A stretch of DNA of 64,000 bases from Candidatus Saccharibacteria bacterium (GTDB lineage: Bacteria; Patescibacteriota; Saccharimonadia; Saccharimonadales; Saccharimonadaceae), in assembly GCA_016789455.1 (NCBI GenBank), contig JAEUQU010000002.1, positions 992,001-1,056,000 on the forward strand, given 5' to 3'. A program made the translations under genes and the position numbers. Below, piece by piece: positions 883 through 23,932 of this stretch. The notes below the pieces were generated by a model. It worked only from the letters and a program-made list of their open reading frames with translations. It did no database searches and was not told the DNA's origin. Numbering within the stretch: position 1 is the first letter of the stretch; the number at the start of each line of letters is the position of its first letter.

Positions 883-3432
883 TTAAAAGCACAGAACCAT
901 ATGCTCTTCTTCATTACAATCAACAGTGTCGAGCCCTGTAGTGGTGAAATCTAATTCAAATTTAAGCTTAGGCAAACTGAAGTCCTTCATGCCCTTTTTT
1001 ACAGCTACCCAGTCGTTGTGGTCGTCGTTATACAAACCTTCTGAGTAACTCACACTGCTTAGAGGGCTAGTATTCGTGCCAATGTTGTAATTCATTATGC
1101 CGTAATAACCAGTGCCATTCTCCGTCATTGAATGGGTGACGGATGTAGCTCCATCAACCTTAGAGTATATACAGGTACTATCCTGGAACTCATACCTGGC
1201 GATGGGCGTTAAGCACAAGCTATGTCCCATCTCGTGCATAACTGCTTTTGATAACCTCACATCAAAATCGTTTGGTGCTACAATGCCCACTGATTCATAT
1301 GCTATCAACATGTCATCATCTCCGCCTATTGCCGTGCCGAGCTTAATAGAGTTGGGATCATCGTCAGGAATAAATCGACTAAATAACATGTAACGCCACA
1401 CCCCTCTTCGTTTATCACTGAAGTTCGAAGTCAGATTGTTTTGCGTGTCGCCTTTTTTGTAGTCTGTAATGTCAAGGCTAAACTCATTTAAGTCTACAGT
1501 GTCGCCTCGATAAGGCACTTGATTGCCTCCGCCAAAATCTTTTATGTCATCGTCTACGCCCACGCTTAAGGCACTGCCTATATTATGGCCTACGTCGAAG
1601 TGTGTTTCGATGCCAAACTCTCTAAAAGCCTCTACGACGGGCATCAGTTGATCGGGGGTTGGCTGAGTTGAGTAGTTATTGTCTTTTGTCCAGTCAATCT
1701 GCACAAACAAATCTTTCTGAAGAGGATTTGGAGCGGCGCAGTTTATGGGATTATTTTGAGTATCTGTATTGCAATAAGTTACGATTTTATCTGAGTACCA
1801 CTCGGACTCTTTATTGTCATCGATGCCATCATCGTCAAAGTCTTGCGAATAATCACTTGTACCTTGCTGGTTCTCATGGAACATATTTAACTTATCGCCA
1901 TCCATATCAATCTCTTCATAGTCATAACTCGTCAGCGGCTCAGACCGCGGATACCTATCCCCAATAACATTGACCAGGTCCAGCACCGTCACATAGGTAT
2001 TGTTGGCCGCCCCACAGAAGTTCGCATACCACTCCAGCTTGCATGATACGAAGTATGCTTTGCCGCCTTGCAGGTCGACCTTCGTGCCGGCCCCGAACTT
2101 ATCCTGCCCGTTCGGATCCATGGTGTAGTCGTCCGACGAGGCATAGACAATGGACATGGTGCCGGTGGCGTCCACCTTACGCACCACCACGTAGCGGTCG
2201 GAGTTGCTGTACTGTGTGACGTCGGCCGTCGACACCAAAATGGCAACGCCGTTGTTGTCAACCGCCGGCTGGCTGGTGCGCCGCACAGTAGCAAAACCAT
2301 CGCCGCTCATGTTATTGAGGTCTTTGTTGTACACCACCGCGTCACTCACCGAATACTTGACCAGCATGTCGTCGTAGGCGCCGGACGTGCCCGGTTGGGC
2401 ACCCAGCACCACCACGCCGTTGTCTGGTGATATGGCCACGCTATCCGGCACGAAACTGCAGGTACTGACCGGCACAGTGGAGCGGCCGGGCGTGCTACCA
2501 CTGGCGGGTGTCGCCCGTGCCAGCTCAACCGAGCCCGTGCAGGAGGCGTTGAGGTTGTTGGCGTCAGAATTGGCACCATTAGACAAGATGGCATAAACAT
2601 AGCCCGCCCCGTTACCGCTGGCATGCAGGATGAACTGACCGGAGGATGAGGCAAGGTCAATGGCAGTGTTAGTACCTTCTGTCAGCTCGTCGTCGCCGAT
2701 ACCCGGCGTGTTGTTGGTGTCGAAGGTCGCGTAGCGGACGTTCGTGCCGTCCAGGAAGGCCACGCCGTTCTCACCGGGGAAGACGTGGTCGAACTGCTTG
2801 GGGTGCCAGGAGCCGGAAAGGTTCGGTCCCTGCAGCGGCAGGCTGTCGATGACCTTGCCATTGAGGGCGTTGAGCATGTAAAGGCGGTTGTCCGGGCTGC
2901 TGCAGCCGGAGGGCGCATAAGCATAGACGAAGACGTACCCATTAAAGCCAATGGTTGGAAAGAACAACTCGCCCTGCTTGCCTTCCGGCGTGCTGGCTGA
3001 CGGGCAGGTCTCGGCCGTGAATGGTGTCTGCCACATTTCGGCGTTGGTGCGGTAGGCCGACAAGCGCCGCTGGAAATTCCCGTTACTGTCCTTGACTTCT
3101 TAGGCGTAGACGGTGTCATCCAGGCCGACGCCCATGCCGACGTTGTCGCAGTATGGTGCCCACCATGGCTTGTTACTGTCGCGTGTGACGGTATCGGTGA
3201 CGGCATGGCTGGGTGAGTAGGTTTTACTATAGGTCCATGGCGTCGTGGAGCTGTTGCATACCGACGCGTTGTAACTGCCGTCCTTGTGGGCGTAGACGTA
3301 CTCGGGGATGTATGACCCAGTACTGGTGTGGATCGCTGCGGCCTCCGCCGCTCTTGAAGTAACTGTATTTAGCAATACCGCGCCCGCTAACACAGCAGCC
3401 GCCAATATACTCCGCGTAAAGATTTTCCCCAC
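883..3432 (-). pseudogene. Secreted metalloprotease-like protein interrupted by an in-frame TAA
   Basis: Two open stretches in the same frame, 3432-3103 and 3099-886, are separated by one TAA at 3100-3102. The first begins at GTG 3432, five bases after AAAGGAG, and encodes a signal peptide (MGKIFTRSILAAAVLAGAV...). The second has no plausible start of its own (only TTG), so this reads as one gene of about 850 codons with a nonsense change; CAA to TAA would suffice. The N-terminal half looks beta-rich and propeller-like. The C-terminal half has an acidic calcium-binding-type loop (DFDDDGIDDNKESEW) and a zinc protease motif HEMGH inside KAVMHEMGHSLCL. The DNA changes from GC-rich to AT-rich near 1925. 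Stop-codon readthrough, a sequencing error or a true pseudogene are all possible. Confidence 0.7.
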
Positions 3433-4924: not shown

Positions 4925-5791
4925 ATGAAGGCACAGCGTCCGCTACTTACGGGCCGCATCAGCTATGCGGCGGTGCTGTCCTGTCTGCGCTCCGGCGGGC
5001 TGTGGCTGGCGGCGCTGGGCATCCTGAGCCTACACCTGGCGCCAATCGCGCTGGCCAACACCTCCATTACGCAGGGATACAACGTCAAGGAGCCGCTGCC
5101 TATCGGCTCGATTGTCAGCATCGAGAAGAACACCACCGACACGGTCTTTGCCGCCTCCACCAGCAACATTGCCAACCTGCTGGGCGTGGTCATCAATCCG
5201 GAGAGTTCGCTGATCACGCTTTCTAACGGCCAGCGCTCGCAGGTCCAGGTGGCCACCAGCGGCACGGTGCCGGTGCTTATCTCGGACATGAACGGCAAGA
5301 TTGCCCGCGGTGACCACATCACTGCCTCGCCCATTCCTGGGGTGGGTATGAAGGCGACGGCCAGCGTCATGGTCTTAGGCATCGTCCAGGGTGACGCCGG
5401 CAACGGCACGGTGCAATCGTACAAGGACAAACAAGGCAAAGAGCATAAAGTGACGCTAGGCCAGGTGCCGGTACTGTTGAACGTGGCCTACTACTTCAAG
5501 GAACCCGAAAAGACCATCATTCCCTCGGCCATCCAGAACGTCGCCAACGCCTTGGCTGGCAAGGCGGTCAGTTCCACGCCTATCCTCATCAGTGCGGCTA
5601 TCTTTCTGGTGACCATCATCGTGGTGGTCAGCATCATCTACTCGATGATCCGCAGCAGCATCATTTCTGTCGGCCGCAACCCGATGTCGCAGTCGGCCAT
5701 CTACCGCAACCTGCTTCATATGTCCACGCTGGTCCTATTGATATTGGGCGGCGGTTTTGCAGCGATTTATCTGGTATTAACACGGTTATAG
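4925..5791 (+). CDS. Secreted beta-domain protein with a C-terminal subunit-c-like hairpin lacking the ion-binding carboxylate
   Basis: First gene of the F1-like operon, in the place where subunits a and c normally sit. The 288 residues comprise: a signal peptide or first membrane helix (about 20-44, ending PIALA); an extracytoplasmic beta-rich domain (about 45-200) whose pattern of VPVLISDMNGKIARGDHITA and PIPGVGMKA resembles a domain found in phage-tail-like and CPR surface fibre proteins; and two C-terminal membrane helices (about 222-243 and 266-286). The loop between them (SVGRNPMSQSAIYRN) and the end GGGFAAIYLVL resemble the loop and outer helix of F-type subunit c. Aligned on the AxxIY pattern, the essential Glu/Asp position is Gly277. 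The inner helix also lacks the usual GxGxG repeat. Ion translocation through it is therefore unlikely. The assignment to the c family is by eye. Confidence 0.65.
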   Translation: MKAQRPLLTGRISYAAVLSCLRSGGLWLAALGILSLHLAPIALANTSITQGYNVKEPLPIGSIVSIEKNTTDTVFAASTSNIANLLGVVINPESSLITLSNGQRSQVQVATSGTVPVLISDMNGKIARGDHITASPIPGVGMKATASVMVLGIVQGDAGNGTVQSYKDKQGKEHKVTLGQVPVLLNVAYYFKEPEKTIIPSAIQNVANALAGKAVSSTPILISAAIFLVTIIVVVSIIYSMIRSSIISVGRNPMSQSAIYRNLLHMSTLVLLILGGGFAAIYLVLTRL

Positions 5792-5800
5792 GGAGTACTT

Positions 5801-6430
5801 ATGGATCCACAGCAATTACAAATCTTCCTTCTGGTCAATGTCTTTTTGATGGGCATCCTAGCGGCGGTCGGTTTCCGGCACGCCCGGGCGCATTTCCGGC
5901 CGCAGGAGCATGATGGGCACGGGCATGACACTAAGCACGAGGCTCATGCCGGTGATCACGCCACGCTTCCCGCCCGCGAGCGCGCCAAACTGCTTGAAAA
6001 AGCCCAGGCTGATTACGCTAAAGTGCTTGACCGCTCGGTGAAAGATCTCGAGCATGATCTGCAAGGCACCACCGGCAAACTGACCAAACAGTTGGAGACG
6101 ATGCTGGGCGCCATGGTAGAGAGCGAAGTTGAGCGCTACAAGGCCGAACTGGCCCGCCTGCGCGCCGAGGCCGAGCAGGCCACTGCCAAAGCCCAGGCAG
6201 ACATCGGCACCCAGCACGACGGCCTCAAGGAAAAGCTAGCCCAGGAGCTGGCCGCCGAGAAACAGAAACTGGTGGACCAGCTCGATGGCAAGCTGGCGGA
6301 TGCCGTCGCCTCTTTCCTGACCGAGACGCTGCAGCATAACGTGGACCTGGGCGCGCAATCCGCTTATCTTACCTCCATGCTCGAGGCCCATAAGGACGAA
6401 CTGGTGCGAGGCATCCGCGATGACGGCTAA
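5801..6430 (+). CDS. atpF: F-type ATPase b-subunit-like stalk protein
   Basis: The 209-residue protein has one N-terminal membrane helix (about 7-26), a histidine-rich linker (HDGHGHDTKHEAHAGDH, about 38-54) and a long charged coiled coil to the C-terminus, the architecture of an F-type b stalk. It sits between the c-like gene and the delta-like gene, as atpF does. It starts nine bases after the preceding stop, and its 3' end overlaps the next gene by 11 bases. The His-rich linker is unusual and could bind metal. Sequence identity to known b subunits cannot be judged by eye because b is poorly conserved; position and shape carry the call. Confidence 0.65.
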   Translation: MDPQQLQIFLLVNVFLMGILAAVGFRHARAHFRPQEHDGHGHDTKHEAHAGDHATLPARERAKLLEKAQADYAKVLDRSVKDLEHDLQGTTGKLTKQLETMLGAMVESEVERYKAELARLRAEAEQATAKAQADIGTQHDGLKEKLAQELAAEKQKLVDQLDGKLADAVASFLTETLQHNVDLGAQSAYLTSMLEAHKDELVRGIRDDG

Positions 6431-6923
6431 GCCCGCCGGACTGCGCCTGCCCGACAGCGTCTCCTCCCTGCAGGACCTGGCAACGCTGCAGCTTGAAGTG
6501 CGGGCCTATGCCCGCTGGTTGTCGCACGAGGCAGTCAAGATCAAGGTGCACGCCAAGAATATCTCTGAACCGCCACCGCTTTCACCTGCCGCCAACCAGT
6601 TGATCCACGATTACACCGCCGGCAAACCGGCCACACCCGCCGGCCTGGACGAACTGGTGCAGCAGCTGGAAGACCGCAAGAAGAAAGCCCCGACCCTGAC
6701 CATCACCCTGGCCGGGCCGCCGACGCGTGGGCTCAAGGGGACGTTGGTGGGCTGGTGCCGGGAGAACATCGCGCCGGACGTGCTGGTGAACTTCCAGTTC
6801 AATGCCAGCATCCTGGGCGGGCTGGTGGTGCGCAGCGGCAGTCATACCTTTGATTGGTCCTTCCGTCGGCAGATATTAGATAACCGTGCCAAGTTCCCGG
6901 AGGTGCTGCGCCATGTTCGATAA
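6420..6923 (+). CDS. atpH: F1 delta-subunit-like protein
   Basis: 167 residues, close to the usual size of delta. The C-terminal half contains ENIAPDVLVNFQFNASILGG followed by LVVRSGSHTFDWSFRRQI, which matches the conserved end of delta/OSCP (the GGlvvrvGd...D.S pattern). The first half is helical, as expected for the domain that binds the top of the alpha/beta hexamer. ATG 6420 overlaps the b-like gene by 11 bases, and its own end overlaps the alpha start by 11 bases, so translation is probably coupled. The call rests on the C-terminal motif and gene order. Confidence 0.75.
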   Translation: MTAKPAGLRLPDSVSSLQDLATLQLEVRAYARWLSHEAVKIKVHAKNISEPPPLSPAANQLIHDYTAGKPATPAGLDELVQQLEDRKKKAPTLTITLAGPPTRGLKGTLVGWCRENIAPDVLVNFQFNASILGGLVVRSGSHTFDWSFRRQILDNRAKFPEVLRHVR

Positions 6924-8397
6924 CCAGGCATTCCAGCGGCTGGTGGAAGCCGATAATCTGACGGGTGAAGTGGTCGGCGTCAACAGCTTCATCGTCGAAG
7001 TCAAAGGCCTGGAGGGCGTGCGACTGGGCGCGCAGGTACTGTTTGAGGACGGTCAGCGCGGCATCGTGCGTGAGGCCTACGGCGACCGTGTGATTCTTTT
7101 TAACATCGATTCGGAACGGCTGGCGCCAGGAACGCTCGCCGTTGTCGAAAATGACGTACTGCAGGTGCCGGTGGGCCGCGAGCTGATCGGCCGGGTGGTG
7201 ACGCCAATGGGCGTGCCGCTGGATGGCAAGGGGCCGGTCCATGCCAAAAAGACTTCCAGCATCTTCAATCCGGCGCCCGGTATCATGGCGCGCAGCATGC
7301 TGAACGAGCAGCTGGCCAGCGGCGTGACGGCCGTCGACAGCTTCTTCCCTATCGTGCTGGGACAGCGTATCGCCATCCTGGGCGACAGTAAATCTGGTAA
7401 GAGTACCTTCCTGAGCCAGCTCAGTGCCAACCAGGAGGGGTCGAATAAGATCGTGGTGTATGTGCTGATGGGCAAACGCAAGGTGGACGTGGAAAAACTG
7501 CTGTCCGGGCTGCGTGAATCCGGCGCCATGGAACATACCATCGTGGTCATGGCCGATATCTTTGATTCGTTGACGCAGTCATACCTGGCGCCCTATGCGG
7601 CCTGTGCCATGGCCGAATTCCTGTGGTACGGCACCGGTGCCGACGGCAAAGGCGGCGAGGACGTCATCATCATGTACGACGACCTGAGCAGCCACGCCGA
7701 AGCCTATCGCCAGCTGTCGCTGCTCCAGGAAGTAGACCCGGGCCGTGATTCCTACCCGGGCGATATCTTTTACGCCCACTCCTCCCTGCTGGAACGGGCC
7801 GGCAAGCTCAAGACCAACATGAAGACGCTGACCTCACTGCCGGTCGTACTGACGCCGAACGACGACATCACCGCTTATCTTTCCACCAGTATCATGTCCA
7901 TCACCGATGGTCAGATCATCTTCGACCTGGGTATTTTCAGGCAAGGCATCCGGCCGGCGGTCAATGCCGGTCTGTCAGTCTCCCGTGTGGGCGGCCAGGC
8001 GCAGACCAGGCGGCAGAAACGGCTGTCATCAACCTTGTTCAAAACAATTGCGCGCTACAAGCAGGCCGAGGAATTCTCGCACTTCTCCTCGCAGCTTTCC
8101 AAAGAAACCCGCATCGACCTGACCCTGGGTAAATACATTTTTCAGGTATTGCAGCAGCCGCCGGAGGAACGCCGTTCGCTGATCGAGCAGATGTTGCTAC
8201 TGGAGACCATCATGCTGAGCGGCGGTGAGATGGAGATTGATGTGACGGCACTGAAGGCATCAGTGCGTGAGGTGGCGCATAAGGTCAAGGACGTTACCGA
8301 TGAGGAGACGTTCGATAAGTTGGAGGCGGAGCTGTTGAAGAAGCATGGGGCAACGCAGTTGGAAGCGGCGCCGGCTGATGAAAAAACAACAGCATAA
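6913..8397 (+). CDS. atpA: F1 ATPase alpha-like subunit
   Basis: 494 residues from ATG 6913 (MFDNQAFQRL). The protein has the beta-barrel domain, the nucleotide-binding domain and the C-terminal helical domain of F1 alpha. The arginine finger region is intact (GIRPAVNAGLSVSRVGGQAQ). The P-loop reads GDSKSGKS instead of the canonical GDRQTGKT, so the usual Gln is Lys, although the Walker lysine and hydroxyl residue remain. The N-terminus is about 20 residues shorter than typical alpha, which removes part of the delta-binding segment. These differences mark a divergent alpha that should still complete a catalytic site with beta. It overlaps the delta gene and is followed by an unrelated cassette. 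Confidence 0.9.
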   Translation: MFDNQAFQRLVEADNLTGEVVGVNSFIVEVKGLEGVRLGAQVLFEDGQRGIVREAYGDRVILFNIDSERLAPGTLAVVENDVLQVPVGRELIGRVVTPMGVPLDGKGPVHAKKTSSIFNPAPGIMARSMLNEQLASGVTAVDSFFPIVLGQRIAILGDSKSGKSTFLSQLSANQEGSNKIVVYVLMGKRKVDVEKLLSGLRESGAMEHTIVVMADIFDSLTQSYLAPYAACAMAEFLWYGTGADGKGGEDVIIMYDDLSSHAEAYRQLSLLQEVDPGRDSYPGDIFYAHSSLLERAGKLKTNMKTLTSLPVVLTPNDDITAYLSTSIMSITDGQIIFDLGIFRQGIRPAVNAGLSVSRVGGQAQTRRQKRLSSTLFKTIARYKQAEEFSHFSSQLSKETRIDLTLGKYIFQVLQQPPEERRSLIEQMLLLETIMLSGGEMEIDVTALKASVREVAHKVKDVTDEETFDKLEAELLKKHGATQLEAAPADEKTTA

Positions 8398-8425
8398 TCC
8401 AGGACGCCACCGGCTCCGGATGCGG

Positions 8426-8431
8426 TATGAT
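8426..8431 (+). promoter_or_regulatory. -10 box of the first cassette gene
   Basis: TATGAT 29 bases after the alpha stop and 42 bases before ATG 8474. Together with AGGAG at 8464-8468 it gives the inserted gene its own start signals. No clear -35 box is seen. Confidence 0.45.
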
Positions 8432-8473
8432 GCACATAAGGCATGTCCACCGCACCTCTGCACAGGAGCTGAA

Positions 8474-8944
8474 ATGTTCACATTGGCACAACGGGTCAGC
8501 GGCATCTGGCACATCGAACACCCTGGCTTCGCCGCGCCGGACAGGGCTGTTCTGGAGCGTCTGCGCATCGAGTTCTCTACGCGCATGCTCGGCTACGAGC
8601 CCCTACGGGGCCTGGGCTGTGACCGTTCATGGCGGGCGTCCTACGTCCACGGCGCTCCGGATGGCTGGCTGGCCCGCTTCCGGCATGATGCCAAGGGCCT
8701 GCAGTTCCATCTGGGCGACCCTGGAGGCTTCGGCAGACGGGCCGGTGTCTTCCAGCATGTGATAGCCGCCCTGGTACACCAGGCGTTGGAGCGGGGCTTT
8801 AGCGCCCTCTATCCCATGACCTACGAGGTAGTCATGGAGGAGGACAAGCGCAGCTGGCACGTCGCCCTCCTCAGCGATTACATACCGCCGTTGAGGGGCA
8901 CGACGCGGCTCAGGCCGGCGCTACGCAAGCCGGCCATCGCCTGA
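8474..8944 (+). CDS. Uncharacterised protein inserted between the alpha and gamma genes
   Basis: 156 residues from ATG 8474, chosen because AGGAG lies five bases upstream; in-frame codons further up overlap the alpha gene. The protein is soluble, rich in Arg, Gly and aromatic residues, with no membrane segment, no P-loop and no recognised motif. It has its own -10 box and a strong terminator directly after its stop, so it is a separate transcription unit inside the F1-like operon. It does not resemble any ATP synthase subunit or assembly factor I know. It could be a passenger cassette or a dedicated accessory factor. Confidence 0.65.
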   Translation: MFTLAQRVSGIWHIEHPGFAAPDRAVLERLRIEFSTRMLGYEPLRGLGCDRSWRASYVHGAPDGWLARFRHDAKGLQFHLGDPGGFGRRAGVFQHVIAALVHQALERGFSALYPMTYEVVMEEDKRSWHVALLSDYIPPLRGTTRLRPALRKPAIA

Positions 8945-9031: not shown

Positions 9032-9880
9032 ATGACCCGTCGCCCCAACGCGATTGAAAAAGAAGCCAAACAGATCGGCACCGTCAAGGACCTGACCGGT
9101 GTCTTTGAGAGTCTGGCCAGTACGCAGGTGGCCAAAGTCAAGACGAAGGTGGAGTTATCAAAAAGCTTCTTCCAGCTGATTTGGAAGCGCTATAGCGCCA
9201 TCCGGGCCGATCCTAATGCCCGCATCACCAACCGGGAACTGGGCGATGGCCGCACGGTTTTTGTCGTAATTTCTGCCGAAGCCGGCCTGAGCGGTGATAT
9301 CGACCAGCGGCTGGTCGAGACCATGAGCCATGATTACGACCCCAAGACGACCGATGTCATCGTGCTGGGTTCGCACGGAGCGTCGCAGTTATCTCAACGT
9401 GGTATTCCTTACATCAGATTCTTTCAAGTGCCAGAGACTGACCGCTATATCAACGTCATGCCGGTGATAGAAGCAGTGCTGCCCTATTCGCAGATTATCG
9501 TGTATTACGAGGAGTATGTGTCGCTGGGCGTGCAGGATATCAAATCAATCGACCTTATCTCCAGCGTCAAGACGATGAGCGAGGCTTCCGACGAAGACAC
9601 CATGACAACGGCCGAGACCATCTTTGAGCCGTCGCTTGATGAGATTGCCGACCAGATGGAGATGACGATGATGACCCTGGCTCTCAGCCAGTCCATCATG
9701 GAGTCGAGCCTGGCACAGTCCGCCAGCCGCTTCAACGCAATGGCCGTCGCCAAAAAACGGGCCAATGAGCTACTGGGCGACTACATGCTGGAATTCCACC
9801 GCGCCAAGCGTGCCGAGAGTGACCGGCGGCTGCGCGAGGTGCTGATCGCGCTTAAGAAGAAGCGGCGGACGCAGGCCTAA
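9032..9880 (+). CDS. atpG: F1 ATPase gamma-like subunit (rotor shaft)
   Basis: 282 residues, normal for gamma. The N-terminal helix (KEAKQIGTVKDLTGVFESLA) and the C-terminal helix (SQSIMESSLAQSASRFNAMA...) correspond to the coiled-coil rotor shaft. The central Rossmann-like part contains VFVVISAEAGLSGDID, equivalent to the conserved GLCG region of gamma. Several positions differ from typical gamma, in line with the divergent alpha and beta. It has its own leaderless-type promoter after the cassette terminator and is followed two bases later by the kinase-like gene, so those two form one unit. Confidence 0.85.
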   Translation: MTRRPNAIEKEAKQIGTVKDLTGVFESLASTQVAKVKTKVELSKSFFQLIWKRYSAIRADPNARITNRELGDGRTVFVVISAEAGLSGDIDQRLVETMSHDYDPKTTDVIVLGSHGASQLSQRGIPYIRFFQVPETDRYINVMPVIEAVLPYSQIIVYYEEYVSLGVQDIKSIDLISSVKTMSEASDEDTMTTAETIFEPSLDEIADQMEMTMMTLALSQSIMESSLAQSASRFNAMAVAKKRANELLGDYMLEFHRAKRAESDRRLREVLIALKKKRRTQA

Positions 9881-9882
9881 GC

Positions 9883-10404
9883 GTGCCCGGCAAGTTCCTG
9901 ATTACCGGATACCCTGGCACCGGCAAGTCCTCGGTCGCCCGCGCCTTGCAGCACCGCGGCCACACCGCCTACGATACCGAGGCCATGCCCGGCTACATGC
10001 ACGCCGAGAGTCATGGCGGCCAGCGCATCCATCTGCCCTCGCCCGTGCCCGCTGGCTGGTTTGACCGGGTAGGTGCCTACAATTGGAATGTCAGCCGGAT
10101 CGAGCGGTTATTGCAACAGCCGGGCGAAGCCTACTTCTGTGCGCTGGCCGACAATCAACCCCTATTTTATGACCGCTTTGACAAGATTTTCCTGCTACTG
10201 CTCGACGAGACCGTCATGCTGCAGCGGCTCCACTCCCGCACGGAGCGCGCCTACGGGCATGACCGCCAGGAGCTATCGGATATCATGCTGATGCACCGGC
10301 ATTTTGAGCAAAGCCTTGTGGCGCGGGGTGCAGTTGGCATTACCACGCAGAAAGCCCTGCCGGAAGTGGTCGCTGACATCCTGGCCCATTCGTACACTGA
10401 TTGA
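9883..10404 (+). CDS. P-loop kinase-like protein within the F1-like operon
   Basis: 173 residues starting at GTG 9883, two bases after the gamma stop. Walker A is GYPGTGKSS near the N-terminus, and the fold resembles small nucleotide or shikimate kinases of the AAA_17/AAA_18 type. FDKIFLLLLDETVMLQRLHS is a typical strand followed by the LID-region arginine helix. There is no recognisable substrate signature. Because it is tightly coupled to gamma, it probably acts with the complex, for example in regulation by phosphorylation or in nucleotide supply, but that is inference. ATP synthase operons do not normally contain such a gene. Confidence 0.75.
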   Translation: MPGKFLITGYPGTGKSSVARALQHRGHTAYDTEAMPGYMHAESHGGQRIHLPSPVPAGWFDRVGAYNWNVSRIERLLQQPGEAYFCALADNQPLFYDRFDKIFLLLLDETVMLQRLHSRTERAYGHDRQELSDIMLMHRHFEQSLVARGAVGITTQKALPEVVADILAHSYTD

Positions 10405-10463: not shown

Positions 10464-10865
10464 ATGCCCACCACACCGGCTCCAACGGAACTGCCCGATT
10501 TCGCCGACCTGCGCCGATCGGTGACCTACTTGCCGCTCCTGATCGACGAAGCGAGGGCTGAGCCCCAGTTCTGGCTCGTCACGGTCGTGACCGAGTGGAC
10601 GGAGGACGGCCGGCCGCACATCCGTCGGGAGCTGTGGCTCCGCTGCGCCCACTGCGACTACGGCCACAATGGCCACAACAACGCGACGGTGCGCGACCTG
10701 ACGCGCATGGGTGAACTGGCCGAAGGACACACCGGGGCCTGCAGGCGGGGTGGCCGGACCTTCAGGCTGGACTCATCCGATGCCGTCCGCGCCGCCGCCC
10801 TGTCGGACCAGGCCGAGCAGGTCGTCCGCCTGGCCAGCCCGCTCGAAGCGGCCCACGACGCCTGA
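10464..10865 (+). CDS. Uncharacterised protein with a CxxC pair, inserted before the beta gene
   Basis: 133 residues, soluble, with one CAHC pair (about residue 61) and a later Cys near GACRRGG, so a small zinc site is possible. It is followed by histidine- and asparagine-rich DYGHNGHNN. No family is recognised. It has a near-consensus promoter and a strong intrinsic terminator, the same cassette layout as the gene at 8474-8944, and is unrelated to it in sequence. It separates the kinase-like gene from the beta gene. Confidence 0.65.
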   Translation: MPTTPAPTELPDFADLRRSVTYLPLLIDEARAEPQFWLVTVVTEWTEDGRPHIRRELWLRCAHCDYGHNGHNNATVRDLTRMGELAEGHTGACRRGGRTFRLDSSDAVRAAALSDQAEQVVRLASPLEAAHDA

Positions 10866-10977: not shown

Positions 10978-12438
10978 ATGACAAAAACCGCCTCCGCCAC
11001 TCACGCCAAGCCGGCCCCTGCCCCCGCTGCCAAGCCGGCAGCCAGCGTCGGCGTCATCCGCTCGCTGCGCGGGCTGATGGTGGAGGTGCAGATCCTGGGC
11101 GAGATGCCCGATGCCAAAGAGCTGCTGAACGTCGAGGGCTACCCGGAAATCTTCCTGGAGGTCAGTTATTTTAAGAACGGCGGCGCCGTCTGCATCAACC
11201 TGGCCAACAGCACGGCGCTGCGCTGCGGCCAGACCGTCACGCGCAGTTACAAGAAAGTCACCGTACCGGTGGGGCCAAAGACGCTGGGCCGCGTCTTTAA
11301 CGCCCTGGGCGAACCGCTGGACGAAGGCGTCGATGTCACCGAGCAGCGCCGCTCCGTCGCCGAGCCCTCCGGCACCAAAAGCTACCGCAGCAGCAAGAAA
11401 CTGGAACTGCTCGAAACCGGATTGAAAGTCATCGATTTCATGACGCCGTTCGTCAAAGGCCGTAAGATCGGCATCGTCGGCGGCGCCGGTGTCGGCAAGA
11501 CGGTTCTGACGACGGAGATGATCCATAATGTCAGCCGCAGCGATAAGAGCATGTCCATTTACTGCGGTGTCGGTGAGCGTATCCGTGAAGGTAACGAATT
11601 ATACGAGACGCTCAAGGACACCGACGTACTCAAGAATACGGTGATGTTCTTCGGCCAGATGGACAGCACGCCGGCCATCCGCTCGATGGTGGCGCCGGCC
11701 GCTGCCACCGCTGCCGAGTACTTCCGCGACGAAGAAGGCAAAGACATCCTGTTCTTCGTCGACAACATCTACCGTCATATCCAGGCGCTGACCGAGCTGT
11801 CCACCAACCTGGGCCTGATTCCGTCTGAAGGTGGCTATTCTCCCCTGGTCTTTGCCGAGCTGCGGCGCCTGCAGGACCGCCTCAGCTCCACCGAAAGCGG
11901 CACCATCACCTCCGTCCAGGCCGTCTATATCCCGGCGGATGACCTTTCCGACCCGGCGGTGCAGGCTATTTCGCAGCAGCTGGATTCCGTGCTGGTGCTT
12001 GACCGTTCCATCGCTGAGACCGGCATCCGACCGGCCGTCAACCTGCTAAAGACGACGTCGTCACTACTCACCCCGGAGGTCGTCGGCGAGCGCCATTACC
12101 GTCTGGCCGGCCGGGTGCAGGCCATCATGCAGAAGTACGACAGCCTGAAGAACATCATCGCCATCGTCGGTGAAAACGAGCTGTCACCCGCCGACCGGGC
12201 CGATTACCAGAACGCTAAAAAGTTAATCCAGTTTTTTAATCAGGACTTCTCGGTGGCGGAAAAGTTCAGCGGCCGGCCTGGCGAATACTTTACGCTGGAG
12301 CAGACGCTGGACGGCATCGAGGCCATCCTGGAAAGCAAGCCGGAAGGCGAAGAAGAAAAAGCTGCCGAGCCCAAGAAGGACGCCGAAAAGCCTGAGGCCA
12401 CCAGTGACGACAAAGGCAAAAAAGACGAAAAGAAGTAG
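10978..12438 (+). CDS. atpD: F1 ATPase beta-like catalytic subunit
   Basis: 486 residues. Catalytic features are intact: P-loop GGAGVGKTV, the catalytic Glu and Arg in GVGERIREGNELY, the Walker B region DILFFVDNIYRH, and SVQAVYIPADDLSDPA. Typical beta signatures are altered: the MNEPPGAR segment reads MDSTPAIR, and the DELSEED loop reads ENELSPAD. The protein has an Ala/Pro-rich N-terminal extension and a Lys/Glu-rich C-terminal tail of about 35 residues. ATP hydrolysis is plausible, but coupling through a standard ion-driven Fo is not supported by this operon. It is followed six bases later by an epsilon-like gene. Confidence 0.9.
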   Translation: MTKTASATHAKPAPAPAAKPAASVGVIRSLRGLMVEVQILGEMPDAKELLNVEGYPEIFLEVSYFKNGGAVCINLANSTALRCGQTVTRSYKKVTVPVGPKTLGRVFNALGEPLDEGVDVTEQRRSVAEPSGTKSYRSSKKLELLETGLKVIDFMTPFVKGRKIGIVGGAGVGKTVLTTEMIHNVSRSDKSMSIYCGVGERIREGNELYETLKDTDVLKNTVMFFGQMDSTPAIRSMVAPAAATAAEYFRDEEGKDILFFVDNIYRHIQALTELSTNLGLIPSEGGYSPLVFAELRRLQDRLSSTESGTITSVQAVYIPADDLSDPAVQAISQQLDSVLVLDRSIAETGIRPAVNLLKTTSSLLTPEVVGERHYRLAGRVQAIMQKYDSLKNIIAIVGENELSPADRADYQNAKKLIQFFNQDFSVAEKFSGRPGEYFTLEQTLDGIEAILESKPEGEEEKAAEPKKDAEKPEATSDDKGKKDEKK

Positions 12439-12444
12439 CCGCAG

Positions 12445-12708
12445 ATGGCCAGCCAGCCCGCCCTCCTCACTGTCATCGCCCGCGCCCCTTTCGAGGTGTA
12501 CTACGAAGGGCCGGCCATCGCCGTCTCAGCCCTCAACAAGGTGGGTCCCTTCGACGTCCTGCCCGGCCACGCCGATTTCTTTTCCATGCTGCTCCCCTGC
12601 GAGGTGATCATCACACTCGACATGAAGTCAGATCCGGTCACCTTCAACATCAGTAACGGCATCCTGACGGTGCGGGATAATGAGGTGATGGTGTTTGTGA
12701 ATATGTAG
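12445..12708 (+). CDS. atpC: Epsilon-like subunit reduced to its N-terminal beta domain
   Basis: 87 residues, against about 130-140 for a full epsilon. The sequence covers only the N-terminal beta-sandwich (VGPFDVLPGHADFFSMLLPC matches the conserved GxxxxLPGHA region). The C-terminal two-helix domain, which in many bacteria inhibits hydrolysis, is absent. The remaining domain would still join gamma to the membrane rotor. It lies six bases after the beta stop and ends two bases from the convergent dinD stop, with no terminator in between. Confidence 0.8.
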   Translation: MASQPALLTVIARAPFEVYYEGPAIAVSALNKVGPFDVLPGHADFFSMLLPCEVIITLDMKSDPVTFNISNGILTVRDNEVMVFVNM

Positions 12709-13679: not shown

Positions 13680-14753
13680 CTACTGCATCACAATGTAATC
13701 AAACATATACGACCCCGGCGCCGCCGTCCCGGAAATACCCACCTCAAACCCACCAATCGTACGATTGATAAAGACACTACCATTGATACCCTGCCCCACC
13801 GGCGTCACCACGACTTTAGGCGTAATGGCGTACTGGCTGGTAAAAGCCACCCGCGCGATGATGCCGTTGCCGTTGCCCGGCCCCAGGTTGGCAGCGATGG
13901 TGCCGGCCATATCGTTGCCGCTCATAGAGACGGTACCGCTGGTGCCCACGGCCGGTCCGCGCCCGATGTTCGGCACGTTGCCGCGCGTAATGATGCGCCC
14001 GCCCACCGTCAGCGAGGTGTTGGCCGTCAGGCCGTTGGCCGCAAAGTTCCGTGCCGCCAGCGTCCCGCCGACCGACAGGTTGCCGGAAACGTTCAGGTTG
14101 TTGTTCACCGTCAGCAGCTGCCCCATGGTCACCGGCCCTTGCAGCTGCGTGGCGCCGGCCACGTTGAGGTTCTGGCGCAGGTTGAGGGTACTGGCCGTCG
14201 CTGCACCATTGACATTGAGCTCACTGACCGCCGTGTTGCCGGCCTGCAGGTTGGCCAGGCTGGCATCGTTCGCCGAGAACTTGCTGTTGAGGTTGAGCTG
14301 GCCGCCGATACTGACATCGCTGCCGATGGTCACCTTGCCGTTGAAGCGCGAGTTCGGCCCCACCACCAGTTCCGTGCCCAGCTGCCCTACTGAGCTACGG
14401 GTAACACCCAGCTTATCAAGGGCGCCTGGCGAGAGCGTCACCTCGCCCTGGGCGCCACCACCCGCGGTGCCATTCTGCGTGTTGCGCAGCACAAAGACGA
14501 TGACCCCGGCGTTAATGGCCAGGATGATCAGCACCACCGCGATACCCACGAAGGTCGCCTTGTGGCTCGGCCGGTACGTGCCGCGCTTCATGGCCTTCCT
14601 GGCGCGCAACGCGGCCGCCGCAGCGGTTGCCGATTGCGCAGACGAAGCATCGCCGTCGGATTGCGGCTTCAGCACCTCGGGCGCAGGCGCACCCGATTTG
14701 TCGGTCTTCTTCTCCTCTGCCGCCGGCTCGTCGGCAGATGGCTTCTTGGCCAT
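13680..14753 (-). CDS. Bitopic membrane protein with an extracellular fibre-like beta repeat region
   Basis: 357 residues. The cytoplasmic N-terminus is charged and Ala-rich (about 1-66), followed by one membrane helix (about 67-92) and an outside region made of short beta repeats such as VTIGSDVSIGGQLNLNSKF and LTVNNNLNVSGNLSVGG. This resembles phage-tail or trimeric fibre shafts seen in many CPR surface proteins. A compact C-terminal domain begins near NPQYAITPKVVVTP-like text (SQYAITPKVVVTPVGQG). It is transcribed away from the surface cluster that starts at 14869. Role: probably a surface fibre or adhesin (inference). Confidence 0.75.
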   Translation of the reverse strand: MAKKPSADEPAAEEKKTDKSGAPAPEVLKPQSDGDASSAQSATAAAAALRARKAMKRGTYRPSHKATFVGIAVVLIILAINAGVIVFVLRNTQNGTAGGGAQGEVTLSPGALDKLGVTRSSVGQLGTELVVGPNSRFNGKVTIGSDVSIGGQLNLNSKFSANDASLANLQAGNTAVSELNVNGAATASTLNLRQNLNVAGATQLQGPVTMGQLLTVNNNLNVSGNLSVGGTLAARNFAANGLTANTSLTVGGRIITRGNVPNIGRGPAVGTSGTVSMSGNDMAGTIAANLGPGNGNGIIARVAFTSQYAITPKVVVTPVGQGINGSVFINRTIGGFEVGISGTAAPGSYMFDYIVMQ

Positions 14754-15714: not shown

Positions 15715-16845
15715 ATGAAAAAACGACTCAAATCAATCTTATACCTCTCTGGTGCCTCGCTACTGGTAGCCGCACTCGTCTTCCAGGCCCTACCGCAGCG
15801 CAAAGTTCACGCTGCAGGCGTACAGATAACCGACCGTAAGCTGACGCTTATGGCCGGCGCCACTGATGGTGGTTCCAAGCCTGGCGGTGTCGTCAACCAC
15901 ATGTTCAACTTTACGTTGCATGTCGATGACAACGTCGGTTCCATTAAGTTTGAGTACTGCACGCTGGCTGCCCTGGCCTGCGTCACGCCGACCGGCCTGG
16001 TCACCACCAACGCCACACTCGGCAGCGAGAGCGGCCTGACCGGCTTCGCCATGGACACCGACGATGTTCCCGGCAAGCCCTATCTGACCCGCACCCCGGC
16101 CGACACCAACTCCACCACCACTGCTGTCGCATTCCGCCTTGACGGCATCACCAACCCGACCAATGAGAATGAGACCTTCTTTGTCCGCATCACCACCCAC
16201 TCCGATGCAGCCGCCACCAGCGCCGCGCTTGATGAAGGTACCGTCACTGCCTCCACCGCCGAGCCCATCGACCTGGAAGGCACCATGCCCGAATCACTGG
16301 TCTTCTGTACCGGTGCCGAGGTCCTCAAGACCGACAACCTGCCCGACTGCTCGACGGCCACGCCTGGCGACATCGAATTCAGCGGCCTGTTCTCGCCGAT
16401 CACCACCGCCACCGCCACTTCACAGATGGCCGCCTCCACCAACGCCGGCCAAGGCTACACCATCACCGTCAACGGTCCGACATTGACCTCAGGTCTTAAT
16501 ACCATCACGCCGATTGCGGCGGCCGAAGGCGCCATCCTTGGTAAGAGCCAGTTCGGCATGAACCTGATGGCCAACACGCTGCTGACCTCCAACCCGATCG
16601 TCGGTGCCGACATCGATGAGGAGTCCCTGACGCCCAATCTCCGCGGCCAGGCGCTGGCCGGCTACAACACCGTCGACGTCTTCAAATATGCCAGCGGCGA
16701 GGCCGTGGCCAACAGCGGCAACCCATCGCTGAGCGGGTCTGACGCCCAGATCTATACCGCCTCCTACATCGTGAACGTGCCTGGTAGTCAGCCAGCCGGT
16801 ATCTATACCACCACGCTTACCTACATCTGCACGGCTACCTTCTAA
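15715..16845 (+). CDS. Secreted surface protein, first copy of a tandem duplicate
   Basis: 376 residues with a signal peptide ending near RKVHAAG. The mature protein is beta-rich and Thr/Ala/Asn-rich, with conserved cysteines that could make disulfides. It is closely similar along its length to the next gene: both have GVQIT-RKLTLMAGATDGG near the N-terminus, LVTTNATLGSE, EGTMPESL-FCTGA and the C-terminal NV-GSQPAGIY module. No repeats or catalytic residues are seen. It is probably an abundant surface or adhesin subunit. A strong promoter precedes it. Confidence 0.8.
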   Translation: MKKRLKSILYLSGASLLVAALVFQALPQRKVHAAGVQITDRKLTLMAGATDGGSKPGGVVNHMFNFTLHVDDNVGSIKFEYCTLAALACVTPTGLVTTNATLGSESGLTGFAMDTDDVPGKPYLTRTPADTNSTTTAVAFRLDGITNPTNENETFFVRITTHSDAAATSAALDEGTVTASTAEPIDLEGTMPESLVFCTGAEVLKTDNLPDCSTATPGDIEFSGLFSPITTATATSQMAASTNAGQGYTITVNGPTLTSGLNTITPIAAAEGAILGKSQFGMNLMANTLLTSNPIVGADIDEESLTPNLRGQALAGYNTVDVFKYASGEAVANSGNPSLSGSDAQIYTASYIVNVPGSQPAGIYTTTLTYICTATF

Positions 16846-16974: not shown

Positions 16975-18108
16975 ATGAGAAGACTAGGTGGGAAACGCGT
17001 CAAGCCGTTATTATTGTGTGCTGTAATGGCTATCGCTACGGTCGGTCAGGTGCTGCAGGCGCCGGTTGCCCATGCTGCCGGTGTGCAGATTACTAACCGT
17101 AAGCTGACGTTGATGGCAGGTGCTACTGATGGCGGTTCACTGCCTGGCGGTGTCGTCAACCACCTGTTCAACTTCAATATCCATGTCGACGATAATGTCG
17201 GTTCTATCCGGTTCCTCTACTGCACCACCGCCAGCGGCACCTGCACCATGCCGCTCGGCCTGGTCACCACCAACGCCACGCTTGGCAGCGAAAACGGCGC
17301 TACCGGCTTTGCTATCGACACCGAAGACGTCAATGGCTCTCCCTACCTGACCCGCACGCCGTCCGACACCAACTCCACCAACCTGGCGGTCGCTTATCAG
17401 CTGAACAGCATCACCAACCCGAGCGCAATCAACCAGACCTTCTTTGTCCGCATCACCACCCACGCCAACACCACCGGTACCGGCACGGCCTTGGACGAAG
17501 GTACCGTTGCCGCCTCTACCGCCCGTGAGATCGAGCTGGAAGGAACGATGCCCGAGTCGCTCATCTTTTGCACCGGCGCGACCGTAGCTCTGGACGCCGG
17601 GCTGCCTGACTGCTCGGACACCACCCCTGGCGACGTCGTCTTCAACCAGTTGTTCTCCCCTATCGACACGGCCACCGCCACTTCCCAGATGGCAGCCTCC
17701 ACTAATGCCGACAACGGGTACAGCATCACCGTCAACGGCACTACCCTGACTTCCGGCCTCAACACCATTCCTGGCATGGCCGTGGCCGCCACGCCGACGC
17801 CCGGTTTCAGCCAGTTCGGCATGAACCTGATGACGAACACTACCGATGTCTCGACCGTCCCCGTCGGCTCGGACATTACACCGATATCTGACGGCGCCCA
17901 GCTGCGGGCTCAGCCGGCGGCAGGCTATGGCACTGTGGACAGCTTCAAATTCGTCCCTGGCGAAGTAGTGGCCCGCAGTGACTTCAACACGCCAGGACCG
18001 TCCAATGCCCAACGCTACACCGCTGCTTATATCGTCAACGTCGCCGGTAGCCAGCCAGCCGGTATATACGCCACAACATTAACCTATATCTGCACCGCCA
18101 CGTACTAA
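16975..18108 (+). CDS. Secreted surface protein, second copy of a tandem duplicate
   Basis: 377 residues with a signal peptide ending near PVAHAAG. It parallels the previous gene from GVQITNRKLTLMAGATDGG to the C-terminal NVAGSQPAGIYATTLTY. Substitutions are scattered, as expected for an older duplication whose copies now diverge. The DUF916-like gene starts six bases after its TAA, so it is cotranscribed with the downstream envelope genes. The pair may offer antigenic or binding variants of one surface subunit (inference). Confidence 0.8.
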   Translation: MRRLGGKRVKPLLLCAVMAIATVGQVLQAPVAHAAGVQITNRKLTLMAGATDGGSLPGGVVNHLFNFNIHVDDNVGSIRFLYCTTASGTCTMPLGLVTTNATLGSENGATGFAIDTEDVNGSPYLTRTPSDTNSTNLAVAYQLNSITNPSAINQTFFVRITTHANTTGTGTALDEGTVAASTAREIELEGTMPESLIFCTGATVALDAGLPDCSDTTPGDVVFNQLFSPIDTATATSQMAASTNADNGYSITVNGTTLTSGLNTIPGMAVAATPTPGFSQFGMNLMTNTTDVSTVPVGSDITPISDGAQLRAQPAAGYGTVDSFKFVPGEVVARSDFNTPGPSNAQRYTAAYIVNVAGSQPAGIYATTLTYICTATY

Positions 18109-18113
18109 TACTT

Positions 18114-19208
18114 ATGAAAAAGACTGCCCTCCTGACACTGACCCGACTATGCCTTGCGGCACTAGCCGTCGGCGTGGTCATGCCGGCAGTGCCCGCCGGC
18201 GCCGCCCAACTGCTGCCCGGCAGACAACAGCCGGCTCCTGCGCCCGCGGGTAACAATGAGAGCGGCCAGGCACTGGAAATCGGCCCGCCCGTCATAAATC
18301 TGAAGGGCGACCCGGGCCAGACACTGAAGACGGAAATCATGGTCCGCAGCGTTTCCAATGGCAAGCTGACGGTCAAGGGCCAGGTCAACGACTTTACGGC
18401 CGGCGGTGACGACGGTACGCCGAACCTGCTGCTGGAAGAGGGCGAGGTCAGTCCCTTCTCTATGAAGAGCTGGGTGACGCCGCTGCCACAGATGACGCTT
18501 GAATCAAAACAGCTGAAACAGCTGCCAGTCACTATTACGATTCCGAAGGATGCGGCGCCGGGTGGCTATTACTCTGTCATCCGCTTTACCGGCACGCCGC
18601 CGGAGCTGGAAGGCACGGGCGTGTCGTTGTCTGCCAGCCTTGGATCGTTGATCTTCCTGAAAGTCAACGGCGACGCCAAGGAAGGCCTGGAGATCGCTGA
18701 GTTCTCCACCAACACCTACCGCAAGGCAACCCGGCCCGGCGACCCGGACAAATACACGCCCACCGGCCTGTTTGAGAGTGCGCCGGTACACTTTGTGCAG
18801 CAGCTCAAGAACACCGGCAACATTCATGAACAGCCCGGTGGCCAGATTATCATCAAGGATATGTTTGATAAGAAGATAGCTGCCGTCAATGTCAACCTGC
18901 CACCGCGCAACGTCCTGCCGCAAAGCACGCGCAAGTTCACGCAGGTGTTGGACGGCGGCCAACTTGGCAGCCGGCAGCTGTTTGGTAAGTATACGGCCAC
19001 TATGAAGCTGTCATACGGCACCAACAACCAGTCCGTCGAGAAGACGATTACGTTCTGGGTACTGCCCTACAAGCTCATCGCGATTGTCATAGCAGTACTC
19101 ATCGGCGGGTTCTTCCTCTTCCGCTTCCTGTTGCGCCGCCACAACGAACGCATCATCCGCCAGGCCACGCAGCAACGCTCATCCAGGTCGCGCCGGCCGC
19201 GCCGCTAG
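18114..19208 (+). CDS. DUF916-like cell-surface protein with C-terminal membrane anchor
   Basis: 364 residues: signal peptide (1-30), an extracellular region of two Ig-like beta domains (about 55-310), one membrane helix (about 320-342, LIAIVIAVLIGGFFLFRFLL) and an Arg-rich cytoplasmic tail. Features such as IGPPVINLKGDPGQTLKTEI and VTITIPKDAAPGGYYSVIRF match the DUF916/WxL-interacting family, which in Gram-positives is encoded with WxL-type surface proteins. Here it follows the duplicated secreted proteins directly, suggesting that it anchors or assembles them. The gap to the upstream stop is five bases. Confidence 0.75.
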   Translation: MKKTALLTLTRLCLAALAVGVVMPAVPAGAAQLLPGRQQPAPAPAGNNESGQALEIGPPVINLKGDPGQTLKTEIMVRSVSNGKLTVKGQVNDFTAGGDDGTPNLLLEEGEVSPFSMKSWVTPLPQMTLESKQLKQLPVTITIPKDAAPGGYYSVIRFTGTPPELEGTGVSLSASLGSLIFLKVNGDAKEGLEIAEFSTNTYRKATRPGDPDKYTPTGLFESAPVHFVQQLKNTGNIHEQPGGQIIIKDMFDKKIAAVNVNLPPRNVLPQSTRKFTQVLDGGQLGSRQLFGKYTATMKLSYGTNNQSVEKTITFWVLPYKLIAIVIAVLIGGFFLFRFLLRRHNERIIRQATQQRSSRSRRPRR

Positions 19209-20372: not shown

Positions 20373-23300
20373 ATGGGTGTGACAAAAAGAGTTCGCAAAT
20401 TATTTGCGTACGTCCTATTTCTGGGAGTGACCGTCATCATCGCCGCTGTGAACATAGTGGCGACGCCCGTTCATGCCGCCGTCGGCATCAACCAGCAGAT
20501 CAATTTCCAGGGCCGCCTGCTCAACGCCCAGGGCGCCACCGTCCCTGACGGCTTCTATAACATTGAGTTCAAGATTTACCAGGACGGCACCGGTACGGCC
20601 GCCGGCAACCCTGGCGGCACGCTCAAGTGGACGGAGAGCCACCTGAACTCGGCCGGTAAGGGCGTGCAGATTAAGAACGGTTTCCTTTCCGTACAGCTGG
20701 GCTCTATCAATGCCTTCGGGAGCCAGGTCGACTGGAACCAGAGCGTGCTGTGGCTGAGCATGAACGTCGGCAATACCAACGGCAGCTGTACGCCGATTTC
20801 GTCCTGTTCGCCCGACGGCGAGATGTTGCCGATGAAGGCGATGTCCTCTACGCCTTACGCCATCAACGCCGGCATGCTCGGCGGGCTGACCTCGGCCCAG
20901 TTCCTGCAGATAGCCCAGGGAGTCCAGACCGATGCCTCCACCAACACCAGCAGCATCCATATCAACAAGACCGGTTCCGGTAATTTCTTATCCTTACAAT
21001 CCGGAGGTATTGATGCGTTCCAATTGACGAATGCCGGAGACATAGCCTTCGGCTCGAATGCGAACCATACGATATCCATCGCGACTGCAGGCAGTGGCGC
21101 CGCCGGGCGCTCTTTGTCGTTAACGGGCGGTGCGGCGGGTACCGGCGCCAGCGCCCTGACGGGCGGCAACCTGGTACTACAAGGCGGTGCCGGCGGTGGC
21201 ACGAACGGCAATGGCGGCGACCTGCTGCTGGACGCCGGGGCTGCCAACGGTAGCGGCACGCACGGCAGCATCAACATCGGCACCAGCTACGCCAGCACCA
21301 TCCAGATCGGCAGCTCCAGCCTGGCCGGCGGCACCCAGACGGTCAATATCGGCAACAGTAACGGCGCCGGGACCACCAACGTCACCATCGGCAGTAGCGG
21401 CAGCGCGGGCGGCGGCGTCACCATCCTGCAGGGCAAGGACAGCGTCGGCCTGGCTACCAACGGCGTCACCCGTGCCACCTTCAACAATGCCGGCAGCCTC
21501 TATCTTGGCAACGGCGTCACGGCGGCCGCCCCCAGCAACTTCACGGTCAGCGGTACCGGCAGTACCACCAGCGGCGTCGCCGGCGGCAGCCTGACCGTAC
21601 AGGGCGGTAACGCCACCGTCGGCAACGGCAATGGCGGCAACCTGCTGTTGAGCGGCGGCACCGGCACGGGCACCGGGGCGAACGGCCTGGTCGTCATCAC
21701 CACGCCCACGTTCTCTACCACAACCAACGACCCCAACTGCTACACTGGCGGCGCCCCGGTGGCCAACAACTGCACCATTGCCACATCATCAGTCAACAAC
21801 TCGGCCGCCATCCTGGTCGGCTTCAACCAGGGCGGCCGCATCGCCACCCTGCCCAGCCCGACCATCGCCACCGCCGGACGCGTCATCTACGTCACGGCAG
21901 CCAACGGCACCTCGGATTTCACCCTACAGGTCAACGGTGGCGGCGCTGGCAACGAAATTGCCATGCGCCAGAACACGACCGCCACCATGATCTGGAACGG
22001 TAGCGCCTGGACGGCGGCTGGCGCCTCCAGCTCTACCACCCTGCAGGCAGCCTACGACAACACGCTGCAGAGTGCCGGCGGCGCCGAGCTGGTCGTCTCC
22101 AAGACGTCCACTACCGATGGTCTGACCATCCGTGACAGCTCAGTGAACCCGGTCAACGGCACACTGTTGACCGTACAGACAAAATCGGCAGCCGGTCTGC
22201 TTTCCGTCAACAGCAACGTCACTGATTATGCCACTGAGAGCGGCGCTGAGACTGCTGGCAGCGGCGGCATGGCTACCTTCCCGGCCAATACCTGGAGCGC
22301 CGTAGGCGCCACGACCGTCAGCCGTTACACCACCACCGGCAACTTTGTCGCTACTGGCCAGGGGTCAGTTTCGGTGGTAACGCCAGCCACTGCGAACGTG
22401 GGTGTCAAGAACCGTCTCTCCACCACGCTGACCGCCGGCACCACCTATAACGTTTCCTTCACCAGCCGCCTTGCCAGCGGCACGTTCACCGACATGAATG
22501 TCTACTATTCGATTGATGGCTCCGCCGCCTCAGTACCCTGTACTACCGCTCAGGCCGTCAATACCAGTGTCTGGACCAAGGTGAACTGCACCTTTGCGGC
22601 ACCCGCTGCCGGCATCACAGCCAACAATGCCCTGCTCATCCGCCAGACAGGCGGCACGGCACGGACGTTCTACGTCGATAACTTGAGCATCACCATCGCT
22701 GCGGACTACAACTATGCGACCGACGGTAGCGTGAACGACGGCACCAACTTCGCCACCAACTGGTCGTCAGTGGCCAGCGCCGGCGTCGCACGCAGCACGA
22801 CCGTGGGCAATGATGCCAGTGACAGTGCCCAGGCTACCACCACTGGCACCGGCCAGGGCGTACGAAACAGGCTGTCCATCAACCCTCTGCCCGATACGCT
22901 CTACCGCGTCACGGTATACGCCGCCAGCTCGACGGCGGGCTTCAACAACTTCACCGTCCGGTACTCCCGCAATAACGGCACTAACTTTGTGAACTGTGCG
23001 GACTACAATACCCAGACCGTGTCTTCATCACTGACATCGTTCACCAAGATTACCTGCTACATCACGACCGACAGTACTGCCGCCACCGCACCGTACGTCT
23101 ACTTCACGCAGACGGATGCGACGGCCCGCGTCTTCTACGTCGACTCGCTCAACATGACACTTTCTGACAGCACGACACCAAACGTTCAGATTGGCGGTGG
23201 CATCCACGGCGGTCCGGTTACCCTGCTGACCCTCGACCGAGGTGCATCGGCGCCGATCGCCAGCGACAACGATGCCCTGCTCGGCTCGATGTACTACGAC

Positions 23301-23897: not shown

Positions 23898-23932
23898 CAC
23901 CCCTTCGGTAACATCTTGTCGCTTATGGTAAA

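Follow-up and report, generated by a model that had tools for sequence, protein, structure and literature searches.

An exported protein with a subunit-c-type hairpin heads a second F1-like operon in Candidatus Saccharibacteria

The window analyzed here is a stretch of 64,000 nucleotides from a Candidatus Saccharibacteria bacterium (contig JAEUQU010000002.1, positions 992,001 to 1,056,000). The open reading frame at positions 4925-5791 of the window encodes a protein of 288 residues, referred to as P1, and is a genuine gene: an SD-like GAGGA precedes its ATG, 10 bases separate its stop codon from the start of the next gene, and full-length homologues are conserved, being present in 46 of 101 relatives. 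The initial annotation of this reading frame missed its position at the head of a complete, phylum-conserved second F1 operon located beside a surface-fibre locus. The gene order of the operon is P1-b-delta-alpha-gamma-beta-epsilon. The normal ATP synthase of this 1.44 Mb genome is encoded elsewhere and holds the only subunit a and the only recognized subunit c. The features of the locus are as follows (window positions, strand in parentheses).

4925-5791 (+): P1, exported protein of 288 aa, putative c-like rotor
4925-5056 (+): N-terminal region of P1 resembling a signal peptide (helix 14-37, ALA-N; from sequence and model, any cleavage being putative)
5057-5494 (+): beta domain (residues 45-190) of P1, predicted to be exported and to have a phage preneck-appendage/decoration fold
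5573-5785 (+): subunit-c-type transmembrane hairpin of P1, residues 217-287
5672-5683 (+): GRNP polar loop, residues 250-253 (the loop by which c subunits dock onto the F1 rotor)
5717-5719 (+): P1 position +12, His265 in the window
5735-5737 (+): Leu271, facing the carboxylate of subunit c when the alignment is anchored on the loop
5801-6430 (+): b-like stator subunit, one N-terminal TM and a long coil (position, conserved family; Pfam ATP-synt_B only E 0.92)
6420-6923 (+): delta/OSCP-like subunit (PF00213 E 2.6e-5, above cut-off)
6886-8397 (+): F1-like alpha (PF00006 E 6e-62; below every NCBIfam alpha cut-off)
9032-9880 (+): F1-like gamma, nearly full length (PF00231 E 5e-28)
10978-12438 (+): F1-like beta, catalytic residues intact (PF00006 E 7e-65)
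12445-12708 (+): epsilon, 87 aa, N-terminal beta-sandwich only (PF02823 E 4e-9)
13680-14753 (-): type-II membrane-anchored fibre protein, convergent neighbour and probable partner
15715-16845 and 16975-18108 (+): two paralogous exported beta proteins, part of the linked surface locus (family near the operon in 75 loci)
18114-19208 (+): WxLIP-like exported protein with a C-terminal TM, also part of the linked locus (PF06030 E 0.005, below cut-off; 49 loci)

The operon retains genes for the alpha/beta hexamer with its catalytic residues, as well as gamma, delta, and epsilon; the b subunit is recognized only by its position, its coil, and the conservation of its family. Across the family of F1-like beta proteins, Walker A is kept in 109 of 109 members and the catalytic Glu of the GER motif in 105 of 109. 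All 46 relatives with full-length P1 homologues also have PF00006 genes. Among the loci fetched, 90 have the exact order found in the window, seven lack a detectable b gene, and four have two P1 genes. The order P1-alpha-gamma-beta-epsilon, without b or delta, was found at five loci (L150 and L156 are examples), so that not every locus encodes a standard peripheral stalk. At about 100 loci, P1 stands where an ATP synthase operon has its c gene. The same operon occurs in distant families of the phylum; most of the named records belong to Ca. Saccharibacteria/Saccharimonadia, others are Parcubacteria or Patescibacteria entries, and the one record labelled Chlamydiae may reflect a binning error. 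In a tree of beta sequences, a 100/100 branch separates the F1-like rows from the canonical ones, among which is E. coli. Individual operons also differ in gene content. The operon in the window contains three extra genes that are absent from relatives (8345-8944, 9883-10404, and 10464-10865), one of which is P-loop kinase-like. At four loci of family f114 (L137, L138, L141, and L142) one F1-like operon is flanked by two P1 genes, and in two of these loci, L137 and L141, P1 is separated from b by two genes for exported proteins. One genome (G090, locus L270) has an F1-like operon without P1 at the site, and a profile search of that genome found no P1.

The AlphaFold2 model of P1 (mean pLDDT 90) contains an exported beta domain at residues 48-190 and a C-terminal two-helix hairpin (residues 217-251 and 253-287), in agreement with the initial annotation, which had described an exported N-terminal beta domain followed by two membrane helices and a GRNP loop. 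The predicted topology is compatible with that of subunit c, with the signal-like N terminus and beta domain outside and the GRNP loop inside. The GRNP loop is invariant in an alignment of 34 rows, and the R-N/Q-P polar loop is present in 141 of 142 sequences when variants are counted; SRNP, ARNP, and IRNP occur in f114-type loci.

The relationship of this hairpin to subunit c, also proposed initially, is not visible to Pfam. No PF00137 match to P1 was obtained by Pfam/HMMER at E-values up to 1, nor to any of 30 family members, and the hairpin was consequently examined by profile-profile and fold comparison. An hhalign comparison with 31 c subunits of relatives gave a score of 29.2, as compared to 20.2 for the best of 100 column shuffles. 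Masking GRNP in this small alignment abolished the match, indicating that the loop carries the profile signal. Due to this result, the hhalign set was widened to 90 non-redundant P1 hairpins and to c subunits of additional families, and a fold search was carried out with the hairpin alone. The wider comparison gave a probability of 90%, an E-value of 1.6e-6, and a score of 34.3 over 41 ungapped columns, with the best of 200 shuffles reaching 19.4. The hairpin-only AlphaFold2 model (pLDDT 91) produced 46 PDB matches, 42 of which are ATP-synthase c-ring chains, with a TM-score of up to 0.85 and an rmsd of 1.4 Å. Since the E-values of these fold matches are individually greater than 1, the weight of the search rests on its c-specific ranking. 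The GxGxG packing motif is absent from TM1, as had been noted. Profile, fold, the near-invariant GRNP loop, and gene position all identify the last 74 residues of P1 as a subunit-c-type hairpin. A profile and structure comparison showing no such relation would have refuted the initial proposal; both instead relate the hairpin to real c subunits, even though Pfam membership is lacking.

The register of the hairpin determines which residue faces the carboxylate of subunit c. When anchored on the loop, without gaps over 41 columns, the Asp/Glu of c falls at +17/+18 from the loop proline (Pro253), and +18 is Leu271. None of 141 homologues has Asp or Glu at either position. The initial annotation placed Gly277 at the site of the essential carboxylate; the loss itself is upheld in every homologue, but Gly277 is probably the wrong residue. 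This residue (+24) stands opposite the carboxylate only if the alignment is anchored on AIY, and its column is mostly G/A/S/T. The sole recurrent polar site in the hairpin is +12 after the loop proline, near the cytoplasmic end of TM2, which is Gln in 82 and Glu in 28 of 141 homologues. A Glu in TM1 is restricted to two stand-alone P1 paralogues. Consequently, a carboxylate conserved at another membrane position, which would have counted against the initial reading, was not found among the 141 homologues. As judged from these alignments, the c-position carboxylate is lost in the P1 family. The possibility that P1 is a decayed c subunit was rejected, as the family is conserved and widespread.

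The distribution of subunit a is also informative. No more than one subunit a (PF00119) was found in any genome of the 101 relatives, even though two F1 sets are present in about 40 of these, and PF00119 and PF00137 are both absent from 11 of 23 P1 genomes checked, single-contig assemblies among them. The lack of a duplicate subunit a, together with the 11 genomes without a or c, excludes an ordinary proton pump as the function of the P1 machine. The straightforward reading of the beta motifs and the absent a and c subunits would be ATP hydrolysis without ion translocation, an activity that is inferred from sequence.

The exported domain has been compared with phage-type domains, as the initial annotation called for, and preneck-appendage, tailspike, and decoration folds were matched. 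Foldseek against the PDB returned phi29 gp12 (E 5e-4) and phage capsid decoration proteins, while viral models (BFVD) returned preneck appendage proteins (E 2e-9). Based on its predicted structure, the domain is of the phage preneck-appendage/decoration type. In contrast to the phage proteins that share this fold, the P1 domain is cellular, membrane-anchored, and tied to an ATPase, with a sequence identity of only ~15-25%. Domains of this type also occur within large open reading frames of 370-4400 aa.

Fibre-type genes are linked to the operon. Counting all types, such a gene lies within 4 kb in at least 88 of 118 loci, as compared to 0 of 10 canonical ATP synthase loci. The fibre genes are not part of the operon, and most are encoded on the opposite strand. 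A homologue of the type-II fibre gene of the window is immediately downstream in 77 loci by homology search; a strict text rule recovers 51 of 100 loci. Stand-alone P1 genes adjoin giant N-TM fibres. Other genes surround the operon in the window. A Bro-N domain protein (PF02498; 12711-13592, minus strand) is inserted between epsilon and the fibre gene, and two giant exported proteins lie downstream in the surface locus (20373-29686, plus strand), one of 1174 aa with a CBM_4_9-like region and one of 1917 aa with kelch-like repeats. On the other side, a large protein with a HEMGH zinc-protease-like motif and no Pfam match is encoded at 883-3063 (minus strand).

The operon was also compared with known rotary ATPases. 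With bacterial F1Fo ATP synthase it shares the RNP loop, the fold of the hairpin, the catalytic residues, and the gene order (c-b-delta-alpha-gamma-beta-epsilon in the synthase), and it differs from that enzyme in having no subunit a, a c-type protein that lacks the carboxylate and carries an added exported domain, and a beta subunit across the 100/100 branch. The alpha and beta proteins of the window do not reach the cut-offs of the NCBIfam canonical models. N-ATPase (alternate F1Fo) is likewise a second F-type operon in one genome; however, N-ATPase pumps ions and possesses subunits a and c, and window alpha and beta score 344 and 415 against alt_F1F0 models with cut-offs of 750 and 752. The closest precedent is provided by the Type 2 and Type 3 F1-like X0 ATPases of Mycoplasma, which include the gliding twin motor and the MIB-MIP partner (PMC3369863, PMC11864180, PMC12994834), and which offer a precedent for surface work by F1-like ATPases (PMC11864180, PMC12994834). 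Common to both systems are a second F1-like ATPase beside the normal one, the absence of an ion-coupling part, and surface-related work, which is putative for P1. Protein 5 of the Mycoplasma clusters (MSC_0620 / MMCAP2_0577) shows the layout of P1: a large domain follows a signal peptide, and the C terminus forms two TM helices that contain no charged residue. The Mycoplasma clusters lack delta, b, and any recognized Fo homologue and use a 12-TM protein, whereas the P1 operons keep b, delta, and a recognizable c-type hairpin and have no conserved 12-TM gene. Window alpha and beta fall far below the cut-offs of the Mycoplasma NCBIfam models (MSC_0618/0619, MMOB1660/1670). Membership in the N-ATPase or Mycoplasma families was rejected, as the NCBIfam cut-offs are unmet. 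The CPR passages of an ATP synthase survey report the loss of canonical genes in 30% of sampled CPR and do not mention the P1 system (PMC10656485). No published description of a P1-type system was found in open papers, with subscription papers and preprints being outside the scope of the search.

The model that best fits these observations, in which outward-facing domains are rotated without ion flow, is an inference and had been raised in the initial annotation. P1 is proposed to be a domesticated ATP-synthase c subunit, with its hairpin in the membrane, its GRNP loop in the cytoplasm, and its N-terminal phage-type beta domain outside the cell. Several copies would form a ring, docked through their GRNP loops onto gamma/epsilon of a dedicated F1 head, which would be held by its own b/delta stator. 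Hydrolysis of ATP would then turn gamma-epsilon and the P1 ring. With neither a carboxylate nor a subunit a, no ions would flow and the output would be mechanical. Finally, the exported crown and the neighbouring membrane-anchored fibre or fibres may be turned or strained at the cell surface, possibly to adhere to a host cell, to move over it, or to deploy fibres. A rotary motor of this kind, powered by ATP and uncoupled from ions, is favoured with somewhat better than even confidence. The data establish the operon and its conservation, the c-like nature of the hairpin, the loss of the carboxylate, the absence of a second subunit a, the catalytic motifs of beta, and the linkage to fibre genes; the ring, its docking, its rotation, its coupling to fibres, and its purpose are all inferred. 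P1 was modelled as a single chain only; the ring or complex, as well as trimerization or autocleavage of the exported domain, is inferred at most, and there are no experimental data. The GRNP-dependent profile signal, the lack of PF00137 by Pfam, the fold E-values above 1, and a TM1 without c-ring packing glycines all count against the motor, as do the five loci that have no b/delta and the location of the fibre genes outside the operon, mostly on the opposite strand.

The main rival to a rotary motor is an export or assembly ATPase, in which the F1-like head powers surface-fibre export or assembly in the manner of FliI/YscN and P1 serves as a membrane platform or gate and not as a rotor in continuous motion. 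Exported beta proteins and fibres cluster with the operon, f114 loci carry two exported genes between P1 and b, and P1 pairs with giant fibres away from F1, as would be expected of such a system. It is nonetheless considered unlikely, since the operon retains gamma and epsilon, in most cases along with b and delta, as a rotor-stator machine requires, the signal-peptide-like N termini or single TM segments of the exported proteins suit Sec, and a ring of c-type hairpins has no known protein conduit. A static c-derived anchor, which would tether a regulatory or scaffold F1-ATPase to the membrane and display adhesive domains without mechanical work outside, could account for the five loci without b/delta and for the stand-alone P1 genes. 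The retention of the beta catalytic residues across a very divergent family, and of the stator in most loci, makes this explanation improbable.

The remaining alternatives concern the hairpin itself. The polar Q/E at TM2 +12 in 110 of 141 homologues leaves a slim chance that the machine continues to pump ions through an unusual site, perhaps with a subunit a borrowed from the canonical synthase. This site is predominantly Gln, is His in the window, and lies near the cytoplasmic side. Subunits a and c are both missing from 11 of the 23 genomes checked, and borrowing of the canonical subunit a was rejected on this ground. The absence of a Pfam PF00137 match and the concentration of signal in the loop might alternatively mean that the helical hairpin is an unspecific one, unrelated to c, and that its RNP loop arose by chance. 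Given that the fold ranking is specific for c, that the profile match outscores 200 shuffles, and that P1 takes the place of c in the F1 operon at ~100 loci, this explanation is highly improbable and already largely refuted.

Rotary ATPases are taught as ion machines. The P1 operon suggests that many ultra-small Patescibacteria have a second ATP-splitting rotary engine, besides or instead of the normal ATP synthase, that probably drives a surface structure rather than ion pumping. A c subunit seemingly rebuilt as a mechanical rotor would provide these tiny epibionts with a direct path from ATP to surface motion, and some P1-bearing epibionts have no ion-coupled ATP synthase. The motor is a candidate for the device by which Patescibacteria attach to hosts or move, and it offers a testable reason for the persistence of F1 genes in genomes that have lost Fo. 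Additionally, the shared layout of P1 and the two-TM signal-peptide protein of Mycoplasma F1-like ATPases suggests what their unexplained X0 part may be.

A broader proposal is that these operons encode a class of rotary surface machines, spread across the phylum, driven by ATP, and uncoupled from ions, in which the c ring has become a rotor that displays phage-type domains on the cell exterior and drives membrane-anchored fibres, with P1 rotors that can be exchanged to suit different fibres. This proposal is tentative, and confidence in it falls short of even. In three genomes (G061, G067, and G078) P1 is missing from the F1 operon, and the one full-length P1 found in each adjoins a giant N-TM fibre; this arrangement, which also speaks for the motor, links P1, fibre, and F1 in trans. 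At four loci (L060, L064, L065, and L068) a stand-alone P1 gene is located near ileS, and in three cases rplU, beside fibre proteins of 1200-3600 aa with an N-terminal TM; two of these four P1 proteins have Glu in TM1.
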